NCBI GenBank assembly: GCA_958296245.1
Contig: OY282458.1
Location: forward strand, 62,001-126,000
From: an uncultured Dehalococcoidia bacterium
GTDB taxonomy: Bacteria; Chloroflexota; Dehalococcoidia; Lucifugimonadales; G958296245
Length of the DNA stretch: 64,000 nt
Direction of reading: 5' to 3'
The first letter of the stretch is position 1, and every line of letters begins with the position of its first letter. Positions 25,844 to 39,104 of the stretch are shown piece after piece. The translations under genes were made by a program, and so were the position numbers. A model generated the notes under the pieces. It was not told where the DNA came from, did no database searches, and saw nothing but the letters and a program-made list of their open reading frames with translations.

Positions 25844-26401
25844 TTGGCTAACCGCGTAGCGATCTTCATAGACGGCGCCTACCTCGACTACCTGCTCAAG
25901 GACGAGTTCGGTGGGGTTCGCATTGACTACAGCGCCCTGTCCCAGCATATGGCCGGTGATTCGGACATCCTGAGGACCTATTACTACCACTGCCCGCCGT
26001 ATCAGGGCAACCCGCCCACGCAGGATGAGAGTGAACGGTACTCGACCCAACGTAGATTCTTCAACACATTGGATAAGCTGCCTCGGTACTCGGTGCGGCT
26101 AGGCCGTTTGGCCCGTCGACTCGATCATCGGGGAAGGCCGAGGTACGAACAGAAACGTGTAGACATTCTCCTAGGTGTGGACATGGTGCAGCTTGCTGCT
26201 AAGCAGAATATCCAAGAGGCTATACTGCTAGCAGGCGACAGTGACTTCATTCCCGCCGTGGCCGCAGCGAAGTCAGAGGGTGTGGTAATCAAATTGTTCC
26301 ATGGGGAGCGACCCCACTCGGATCTGTGGCAGGAGACGGACGAAAGAACCCGGATCACTCAGGGCTTCATCGACTCTATCTTGCTACGTTCAGATTCGTA
26401 G
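25844..26401 (+). CDS. NYN-domain (LabA/DUF88-like) putative ribonuclease
   Basis: 185 residues from TTG with GGAGAC upstream. 'RVAIFIDGAYLDYL' has the first acidic residue (D10); 'KRVDILLGVDMVQLA' gives D107 and D113; 'AILLAGDSDFIPAV' gives D132 and D134. These are the conserved acidic residues of PIN-like NYN domains, which act as metal-dependent ribonucleases. Codon use is less GC-rich than in neighbours. It has its own promoter and a strong leader hairpin. RNA target unknown. Confidence 0.85.
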   Translation: MANRVAIFIDGAYLDYLLKDEFGGVRIDYSALSQHMAGDSDILRTYYYHCPPYQGNPPTQDESERYSTQRRFFNTLDKLPRYSVRLGRLARRLDHRGRPRYEQKRVDILLGVDMVQLAAKQNIQEAILLAGDSDFIPAVAAAKSEGVVIKLFHGERPHSDLWQETDERTRITQGFIDSILLRSDS

Positions 26402-31497: not shown

Positions 31498-31734
31498 TCA
31501 TCCACACGGCGCCTCCTTCAGAGTGTAGCAATAGACCGGCTCCTCCGACAACACCCCTCCCCGGCAGTCTCCCAGAGTAGGCGGGGCATTCGCCGCGTGT
31601 GGCGTGGGCAACAACTCTGGAGTCGGTGTGGGTGTCGGGTCGTCCGCGTGAGCGGGCGGAGCCGAATAAACAACGGTCAGGCCGGCTCCTCTACTTGGCA
31701 CGGCATAAGTCTGTCCTACTAAGCAAAGCCTCAT
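31498..31734 (-). pseudogene. Fragment of a Thr/Pro-repeat secreted protein (or unrecognised small ORF)
   Basis: A 78-codon frame whose first part overlaps the PIN gene. The middle reads 'APPAHADDPTPTPTPELLPTP' style linker and the end has 'LGDCRGGVLSEEPVYCYTLKEAPC'. It looks like a secreted-protein segment with two Cys pairs, cut off at both ends. Start and function are not supported, hence the pseudogene/fragment label. Confidence 0.3.
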
Positions 31735-32158
31735 GAGCAGGTGAGATGTCTTTGCTCTTGCGCGTTGAATAAACCTTGCCCCGCGGATTGCTGATCAACT
31801 GCGGGTCCTTGAAGTCTTCCTGTAGTTCTCCATCGTTGGAATACAGGAGCCGTGCGCCGCTGACCTGGGCCAATGCTACAACATGCTCATCGTCTGATCT
31901 GCATGCTCCCCGGCTCTGCAAGTTCTCTGTTGCCCCGCTGACCTTTTCTTCATCCACTACTCTCAACCTCTCTGCAAGCATTGCTTCCCGCGCCCATTCC
32001 GAGAACCTGCCTACTCCAGAGAGTTCCTTACTCAGCCTGCCGCCGACGACCAGCCGGCCCTTTCCTGTGTTGATCCAGTCAAAGAACCTCTTCCCTGCCG
32101 GCGGTCTGTTGAGACCGAACACCTCGCCGGAGACGTTCGCGTCAACGATTGCGCACAT
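31691..32158 (-). CDS. PIN-domain nuclease-like partner of an AAA ATPase
   Basis: 155 residues. The PIN acidic residues stand in order: D6 ('CAIVDAN'), E45 ('LSKEL'), D89/D90 ('SDDEHVVALA') and D109 ('LLYSNDGEL'). PIN domains are metal-dependent ribonucleases used in toxin-antitoxin and defence systems. It begins 21 bp after the stop of the ATPase gene, in the same direction, and both are lower in GC than the surroundings. A two-gene defence or toxin cassette is likely (inference). No small antitoxin gene of a VapB type is visible. Confidence 0.8.
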   Translation of the reverse strand: MCAIVDANVSGEVFGLNRPPAGKRFFDWINTGKGRLVVGGRLSKELSGVGRFSEWAREAMLAERLRVVDEEKVSGATENLQSRGACRSDDEHVVALAQVSGARLLYSNDGELQEDFKDPQLISNPRGKVYSTRKSKDISPAHEALLSRTDLCRAK

Positions 32159-32179
32159 TCTGTCTATAGTTGCCGGTTC

Positions 32180-33526
32180 TTACGGCTTCCACAGGGATCT
32201 GGCCACCTCTTCCATGAAAAAGCTGCGATAACCTTCGGGGGCGCCCACTATGTTCCCTTCCCCGTCTATTTTGAGCGAGTGAATCCGGACGTCCAAGTCG
32301 CCGCGCTCGAAATAGAGGATCGAAACGTCGTCAGGCTTCAACGGGGACTCTCCGTCGCGGACGTCCATGCGCACGCGGTCGATCAGGTGGTCGCTGTGCG
32401 TCTCGACCACCAGTTGGCGGGAACCGGCCACCTGGCAGAACAGGCTGCCGAGGGCGGCCTGCGCGCTGGGATGCAGATGTACCTCCGGTTGCTGAAGCAA
32501 GAATATATCCTGCCCGCTATCGCGCAGCAGTTCGGTTATCAAAGGCAGCGCCTGGCTGACCCCGTATCCCACGTCGATCAAGTTGCGTGCCGGCCCCTTC
32601 TTCCCACCTCCGAACTTTCTGATCTGCACTTGAAAAGGCTCGCTGCCTTTCCTCCCCAGCCGCTTGATGGATATCTCGTCGAAGAGGCCGGCCGACTTTC
32701 CAAAATCTTCGAGCCGCTTCTTGAGATCAGGCCATTCCTTACTCTTGGAAGACATTTCGGCTAGATACATGGGTACGTAGTCGCCTTCCGAGTCGAGCAT
32801 GGGCGAGGAAGGATCGTAAGTGCGGCGAGGCTTGGAGCGGACCGGTGCGCTTGCGAAGGAGCGTACTGCACGAATGGAATGAGAAAGCTCTCGCAACGAC
32901 TCACGATCCTTTGAGCTGAAGGCTGGAGAATCTTCAACAGGCACAAACCCAATCTCATGCGTCTGATCGTTCCCTTGAGTTTGGAATTCTTGCAGCAGAG
33001 AATAAAGATAGTATATTTCGACCTCATCTTCATCGATGAGCGGGACTCTGGTTCTTAGCGGAGCTTGTGCTTTCCAAGACCCTCTGGCGGTTCCGACTTC
33101 AATCACATATGTTTTATCAGATGCATACGATACGCCGACCCGCGTCTGCCCGTGGGAAATGCGGTGTGCCATGGGAACAGGCGCAGTGCCGCTCTGTCCG
33201 AAAACGAATTCAAGGTTGATAAGACGTCCACCTTCGGGGTTTAGGCTGAAGCTGAACCCTGCTTCGAACGTGTCCGCTCTGCCAACCCGGCCGCCTCTGT
33301 GGTGCGCAATCTCGTCGAAGCTTCCGAGATCGTAGGGAGCTTTCTTGAAGTCTGGATTCCTGAGGCTGTAGGTGAGTCCCGAGAGCACACGGATCATTGC
33401 CATGAAGGACGTCTTGCCGGTGCTGTTCTCGCCGACGAGCAGGGTAAGAGGCGCGAGGCGGGCGGTCTGTTTCTCGCGGAAGCACCGGTAGTTCTCGAGC
33501 GTAATCGAGTCCATTGCGGGGTTCAC
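32180..33526 (-). CDS. OLD/DUF3696-like AAA family ATPase
   Basis: 448 residues. Walker A 'VGENSTGKTS' (31-40), ABC-type signature-like 'GYGVSQALPLI' (320-330), Walker B with 'LLQQPEVHLHP' (343-353) and switch 'VETHSDHLIDRV' (374-385). The C-terminal tail 'SILYFERGDLDV' to 'FFMEEVARSLWK' matches the DUF3696-type end. This ATPase class powers or controls partner nucleases in several phage-defence systems. Here the partner is the PIN gene just downstream. No TOPRIM domain is fused. GC content is below the window norm, a sign of transfer. Confidence 0.85.
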   Translation of the reverse strand: MNPAMDSITLENYRCFREKQTARLAPLTLLVGENSTGKTSFMAMIRVLSGLTYSLRNPDFKKAPYDLGSFDEIAHHRGGRVGRADTFEAGFSFSLNPEGGRLINLEFVFGQSGTAPVPMAHRISHGQTRVGVSYASDKTYVIEVGTARGSWKAQAPLRTRVPLIDEDEVEIYYLYSLLQEFQTQGNDQTHEIGFVPVEDSPAFSSKDRESLRELSHSIRAVRSFASAPVRSKPRRTYDPSSPMLDSEGDYVPMYLAEMSSKSKEWPDLKKRLEDFGKSAGLFDEISIKRLGRKGSEPFQVQIRKFGGGKKGPARNLIDVGYGVSQALPLITELLRDSGQDIFLLQQPEVHLHPSAQAALGSLFCQVAGSRQLVVETHSDHLIDRVRMDVRDGESPLKPDDVSILYFERGDLDVRIHSLKIDGEGNIVGAPEGYRSFFMEEVARSLWKP

Positions 33527-38391: not shown

Positions 38392-39060
38392 TCACTCATC
38401 CTCCATCACCACACCGGTAACCGTTGCCCTCAGCCAGAGGCCAAAGCCCACAGCCCCTCCCATAACCAATACAGGGAGAAGCAACAGAAATCCCTCAGCG
38501 CCGACTTGGGACAAGCCGACCAACACTAATCCACCAATTGCTCCGCCACATAACAAGCTGCCAGAGACGACCTTCTCGCGGCGGGTAATAAAACGTGTTC
38601 TTCTGAAATGTTCAACATTCGAAGCCTGCCGCGTGCGCTGTGTCTCTGCCTTGAACTGGGCCTGCGACACAGGCCGAGATGGTGGCTTTCGCTGTCTCGT
38701 CGAAATAAGTCGAGCATATCGCGCCCTGAACTCGCTATCGGTCTGCAATCCCTTGCGCTGGTTACAAGGTCGGCAGATCACTTGGAGGTTGTCAGTATCG
38801 TTGGACCCGCCGCGGACAATCGGAACCATATGGTCTATGTCAAGAGTACGCGCAGTCCGGCGGTACCCACAGTAGACGCAGGTATTGTCTTGACGCTTCA
38901 TCAACTGCCGTTTCAGTCCCTTCGGCCACGCCATTCGCTTGGTAGGACGTATCCTGCGTTCATTGGATCGAGTGATAAGCATCAGCCAAATGAGCCAATC
39001 TGCTATCAGCAGCGAAACCAGCACAATCCACGTCCACACCTTTGCCAACGTGGAATTCAT
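38392..39060 (-). CDS. Membrane-anchored HNH endonuclease-like protein
   Basis: 222 residues. One N-terminal membrane helix (about 9-29), a central HNH domain (60-104) with zinc cysteines C61/C64 and C96/C99, catalytic D76-H77 in 'DIDHMVP', N91 and 'RPCNQRKG', then two C-terminal membrane helices (about 165-183, 189-211). HNH domains cut DNA. ATG at 39060 is preferred; its leader (GAGGAACGAAGT) follows a TATAAT on this strand. AT content is higher than in neighbours. The function of a nuclease fixed to the membrane is unknown. Confidence 0.82.
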   Translation of the reverse strand: MNSTLAKVWTWIVLVSLLIADWLIWLMLITRSNERRIRPTKRMAWPKGLKRQLMKRQDNTCVYCGYRRTARTLDIDHMVPIVRGGSNDTDNLQVICRPCNQRKGLQTDSEFRARYARLISTRQRKPPSRPVSQAQFKAETQRTRQASNVEHFRRTRFITRREKVVSGSLLCGGAIGGLVLVGLSQVGAEGFLLLLPVLVMGGAVGFGLWLRATVTGVVMEDE

Positions 39061-39075
39061 ACTTCGTTCCTCGAT

Positions 39076-39104
39076 ATTATATGGCCCTGTCATGGCAATT
39101 CGTT
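39076..39104 (-). promoter_or_regulatory. TATAAT-containing motif upstream of the HNH gene, near-duplicate of one at 3505
   Basis: On the minus strand it reads GAATTGCCATGACAGGGCC followed by ATATAAT. A nearly identical 25-mer (GAATTGCCGTGATAGGGCC then ATATA) lies at about 3507-3532. The -10 box is good; a -35 box is not clear. Confidence 0.4.

Follow-up and report, generated by a model that had tools for sequence, protein, structure and literature searches.

A DUF3696-type ATPase and a PIN nuclease as a two-gene candidate defence cassette, and its relation to HEC-03

Among the described systems that combine an ATPase with a nuclease, PARIS is close in plan to the locus studied here, as it also consists of two genes, namely those for an OLD-like ATPase (AriA) and a separate nuclease (AriB); AriA is reported to restrain AriB, which is a Toprim nuclease (PMC12409363), whereas the effector of our locus is a PIN protein. 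Septu, retron Ec78 PtuAB and Gabija GajA share the ATPase head fold with our pair but have HNH or Toprim/helicase partners, and their sequence similarity to it is low. Further relatives in plan come from Hma, itself a candidate system (PMC8565338): the HEC systems (i.e. Hma-embedded candidates) were defined by their embedding in Hma, and several of them were antiviral in assays (PMC12988326). One of these, HEC-01 (an AAA_21 ATPase with DUF4276), likewise joins an ATPase to a small partner within the same Hma operons, but its ATPase belongs to another family and its partner is DUF4276. Another, HEC-03, has the layout of our locus, namely a DUF3696 ATPase (HEC-03B) followed by a protein of ~160-177 aa (HEC-03A) with a PIN-like D...E...D...D pattern.

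Here we describe an operon in which such an ATPase precedes a PIN protein, and which very probably represents an undescribed variant of the ATPase-plus-nuclease defence systems. It would add an uncatalogued and widespread ATPase-PIN family to these systems. We found no paper on DUF3696 together with PIN, although the coverage of the literature was incomplete and an earlier mention of the pairing is possible.

The operon and its two products

The 64-kb stretch of DNA that was analysed (hereafter the window) carries on its minus strand an intact two-gene operon. The first gene (32180-33514) encodes a DUF3696-type ABC ATPase of 444 aa, as judged by the open reading frame, Pfam, motifs and an alignment of homologues, and the second (31691-32158) encodes a predicted PIN-domain nuclease of 155 aa, as judged by the open reading frame, the acidic residues, Pfam matches among the homologues and the predicted fold. 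The spacer from ATPase stop to PIN start, given as 21 bp in an earlier sequence-only reading of this DNA, indeed measures 21 nt (32159-32179, minus strand). The ATPase likely starts at ATG 33514 and not at GTG 33526, four codons early, because its homologues begin at residue 5. Neither a promoter nor a convincing terminator was found at the pair.

The sequence-only reading had also stated that the pair is less GC-rich than its surroundings, and this holds: its GC content is 56.3%, versus 65% for the window, and none of 622 equally long windows along the 64 kb is as low. Upstream lie genes for a GH32-like protein and an oxidoreductase and downstream those for a DsbA-like thioredoxin and a LipB(-like) protein; one of the flanking genes belongs to a multi-copy family. 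No direct repeats that would mark insertion ends flank the pair, and no defence genes flank it within the window, where it stands alone among metabolic/housekeeping genes. The window has two further stretches of low GC, which hold a gene for an NYN-domain RNase-like protein (25844-26401, plus strand) and one for an HNH_5 endonuclease (38392-39093, minus strand), respectively.

In the case of the ATPase, Pfam AAA_15, AAA_21 and DUF3696 all score above cut-off, and the motifs recognised earlier (Walker A, QPEVHLHP and THSDH) are all present, i.e. a Walker A GENSTGKT, a signature VGYGVSQ and an H-loop ETHSDH, together with a degenerate Walker B, LLQQPEVHLHP. The family keeps Walker A, signature and H-loop but departs at Walker B from the full ABC/OLD catalytic set: in the alignment Gln takes the place of the acidic residue in 35 of 35 ATPases, the motif reading QQPE in 33 homologues (of which one has QQSE) and in both members of a divergent Binatia subfamily. 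ABC ATPases that lack the metal-binding acidic residue of Walker B should be weakened in hydrolysis while ATP binding is still allowed. The ATPases of the window family should thus have weakened hydrolysis with ATP binding retained, and, given the Gln throughout the family, they may turn over ATP weakly or not at all. Structure comparison relates the fold to the heads of SMC/Rad50, GajA and PtuA, i.e. to the ABC-ATPase head fold.

The small protein matches Pfam PIN weakly (E = 0.013), and 23 of 27 homologues match it as well, the best at 4e-7. Of the acidic residues named earlier, D6, E45, D90 and D109 are conserved across the full-length homologues; the third in order, left as D89/90 in that reading, is D90, because position 89 varies between D and N. 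A C-terminal LLxRxDLC motif is conserved in addition. The AlphaFold2 model made with 27 sequences has a pLDDT of 95.3 and a pTM of 0.90; its top structural matches are VapC chains (Z 8-9.8) and other PIN proteins, with the sarcin-ricin-loop cutter VapC20 among the best and the Cas9-associated PcrIIC1 among the PIN-like folds listed. A search of the PIN profile against the sequences in the PDB gave nothing meaningful. By its conserved acidic residues and predicted fold, the protein is a predicted PIN-domain nuclease with an intact active site. In four other loci (L012, L028, L029 and L030) the PIN gene is frameshifted or truncated while the ATPase upstream is still recognisable, as if the nuclease had been lost first.

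Pairing, distribution and genomic context

The sequence-only reading had proposed to check whether the pairing of the two genes persists in other genomes, and had named PIN genes usually without the ATPase, or ATPase genes beside unrelated ones, as observations that would make it chance; what we found favours the pairing. Searched by pattern, 84,980 genomes yielded 29 PIN loci, each with the ATPase directly upstream (in two of them merely the end of the ATPase, at a contig edge), and Chloroflexota genomes contribute three further distinct loci (L034 was left out as a repeat of L024). Besides the window, there are thus 32 distinct PIN loci, in all of which the ATPase gene immediately precedes that of the PIN, the gap ranging from -1 to 43 nt, and the pairing exceeds chance by far. 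A profile search of 301 Chloroflexota genomes found PIN and ATPase in the identical five genomes and none with one alone; the ATPases of the clade score 652-694 bits in these five, the next ATPase 115 bits. For 13 further genomes reached via the loci, copies of PIN and ATPase correspond one to one, except for a PIN at a contig end (L018). The patristic distances of the two proteins correlate (Spearman 0.76), a value that 0 of 5000 permutations reach. ATPase and PIN form an obligate unit.

By record titles the carriers comprise about ten phyla with a patchy spread, and some of these titles may be wrong because most carriers are metagenome bins, while several are single-contig chromosomes. Sponge symbionts account for several of the carriers (jk18x bins; PMC9531527). 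No PIN relatives were found in plasmids, phages or IMG/VR contigs, although a defence gene that is mobile might be expected there; a pattern search of IMG/VR did not find the ATPase clade, and on plasmids the ATPase is represented by distant DUF3696 relatives only. Two Binatia carry, as a second pair and in the same genomic place, a divergent subfamily of the same layout (L080:7608-9389 and L081:7969-9750), with ATPase identities of 32-36% and a PIN of 137 aa.

As regards the genomic context, a defence-island setting had been suggested, and this applies to part of the family. In six loci (L003, L007, L011, L013, L019 and L021) the pair has the methylase gene hmaB on one side and the ATPase gene hmaC on the other, in L029 a partial hmaB precedes it, and in L009 the DISARM genes DrmB/DrmA are found about 2.5 kb downstream of it; HEC-01 genes share the operon region with the pair in L003, L007 and L013. 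The pair of the window itself is not in a defence island, and in most loci of Chloroflexota and Binatia the pair is alone among housekeeping genes.

Two of the Hma operons, both of Rhodothermales (L011 and L021), hold two tandem ATPase-PIN pairs each. The genome of the window has an Hma locus elsewhere (G000:C1, about 1.244-1.255 Mb) that lacks the pair; there (L082, G000:C1:1243000-1261000) two other genes, of 887 and 414 aa, lie between hmaB and hmaC, the latter AlbA/Schlafen-like by eye.

Proposed function and its alternatives

Defence is the likely function of the pair. For the way in which it may act we take PARIS AriA/AriB as a model of restraint and release: the ABC-type ATPase, which probably forms a dimer or a larger scaffold, would bind ATP, sense infection and hold the PIN nuclease inactive; a phage trigger would release or activate the PIN RNase, and the freed PIN would cut cellular or phage RNA (tRNA, rRNA or mRNA), by which translation and phage would be stopped. 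We infer the physical contact, the restraint by the ATPase, the trigger, the RNA substrate and the abortive outcome; ATPase and PIN folded as one read-through chain gave a pTM of 0.63 and thus no confident interface. Taken as a whole, the reading as an antiviral cassette, in which the ATPase restrains a PIN that a phage trigger frees to cleave RNA, is moderately probable. For it speak the constant pairing and the correlated distances of the two proteins, the Hma and DISARM settings, the folds of PIN and ATPase, the precedent of PARIS and the patchy spread; against it speak the solitary place of the pair in the window and in most loci of Chloroflexota and Binatia, its absence from plasmids, phages and IMG/VR contigs, the low confidence of the read-through model and the Gln in Walker B. 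A more specific version, which we put forward tentatively, is that in this uncatalogued Hma-associated family the ATPase, devoid of the Walker B acidic residue, might be an ATP-locked, non-hydrolysing cage that holds the PIN RNase until a phage signal, and not ATP turnover, opens it. The Walker B substitution across the family in this way offers a testable idea of nuclease control by such ATPases.

The strongest competitor to the antiviral reading is a module of the toxin-antitoxin (addiction) type, in which the ATPase would be a mere antitoxin to a PIN toxin and the pair would serve maintenance or stress without sensing phages. The VapC-like PIN fold fits this, as do the label of AAA_21 in Pfam as a putative AbiEii-type toxin-antitoxin family, the place of the ATPase as the first gene of the operon in every case and the lack of a small antitoxin gene. 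We nevertheless consider it unlikely, since an ABC ATPase of 444 aa that has kept Walker A, signature and H-loop exceeds what an antitoxin needs, and since the pair is embedded in Hma and found near DISARM and is absent from plasmids, where addiction modules are common. It is less likely still that PIN acts on DNA or phage transcripts directly, loaded on DNA by the ATPase as in OLD/Gabija and without abortive cleavage of tRNA or rRNA: the likeness of the ATPase fold to SMC/Rad50 and GajA heads and the listing of PcrIIC1 among the PIN-like folds speak for such a role, but the best fold matches of the PIN are VapC RNases, including VapC20, and neither protein shows a DNA-binding domain. That the pair does housekeeping quality control of RNA or DNA, unrelated to phages, is highly improbable, for despite its stable single locus beside an ion-channel-like gene in one Chloroflexota genus and its place in two Binatia with an SRAP-like gene on one side and a RidA-like gene on the other (neighbours named by sequence appearance), it is rare and patchy (5/301 Chloroflexota genomes), associated with Hma/DISARM and low in GC, duplicated in tandem in L011/L021, and truncated or frameshifted in its PIN in L012 and L028-L030.

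Relation to Menshen and HEC-03

The comparison with PADLOC profiles, which had been proposed for both proteins, was productive for one of them: the ATPase matches NsnB of Menshen best (152 bits), with PDC-M55A and HEC-03B also among its best matches, whereas none of the 27 PIN members has a match with E up to 1, be it to HEC-03A, NsnC, AriB or any other profile. PDC-M55 was dropped as a relative, its M55B being a 315-position model unlike the 155-aa PIN. The relatives on plasmids show two main arrangements, i.e. DUF262-DUF3696-NsnC (Menshen) and DUF3696-HEC-03A, the latter often followed by an RNA ligase. On a Planktothrix plasmid, a gene for a putative DNA methylase is accompanied by those for a DUF3696-like ATPase, for a protein of 232 aa whose motifs VIDTNV and TND are PIN-like, and for a protein of 941-codon scale at the position of hmaC.

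Although NsnB is the best PADLOC match of the window ATPase, the Menshen loci (NsnABC) consist of DUF262, a DUF3696 ATPase and an NsnC of ~315 aa, whereas our pair lacks DUF262 and has a PIN; in addition the Walker B of NsnB is mostly DSPE, versus QQPE in the window family.

HEC-03 is closer in layout. The sequence-only reading could name no PIN partner for such ATPases; that a partner of this kind is without precedent is not supported, as HEC-03 is a PADLOC candidate made up of a DUF3696 ATPase and a small PIN-like protein. HEC-03A is barely recognised by Pfam as PIN; in its alignment (L054-L076) D9, E55 and D116 are invariant and D137 is near-invariant, which is the PIN pattern. An hhalign comparison of the window PIN with three HEC-03A sequences found nothing, and that with 17 sequences gave a weak N-terminal match (probability 54%). 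The conserved motifs and this weak profile match suggest that HEC-03A, unannotated in Pfam, may also be a PIN. In four loci an RNA-ligase-family gene directly follows the ATPase and PIN-like genes (L054:5998-8616, L055:5998-8626, L056:5941-8503 and L063:1727-4187), and the plasmid HEC-03 operons with an RNA ligase suggest that RNA cleavage and repair may be combined in one operon.

With respect to the window family, an RNA ligase, as found in some plasmid HEC-03 loci, was not seen beside the pair, and the genome of the window holds no match to HEC-03A. The window ATPase scores 92 bits against HEC-03B, versus 440 for the HEC-03B of Azotobacter; in the ATPase tree its clade stands apart from HEC-03B and NsnB (support 95/97), on long branches that leave the sister order uncertain, and its Walker B is QQPE versus mostly EQPE in HEC-03B. 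By the missing HEC-03A match, the separate ATPase clade and the Gln in Walker B, the window family is distinct from HEC-03. Its novelty is reduced because an ATPase with a PIN is a recurrent plan, HEC-03 included; if HEC-03A is a PIN, PIN RNases would be a recurrent partner of DUF3696 ATPases.
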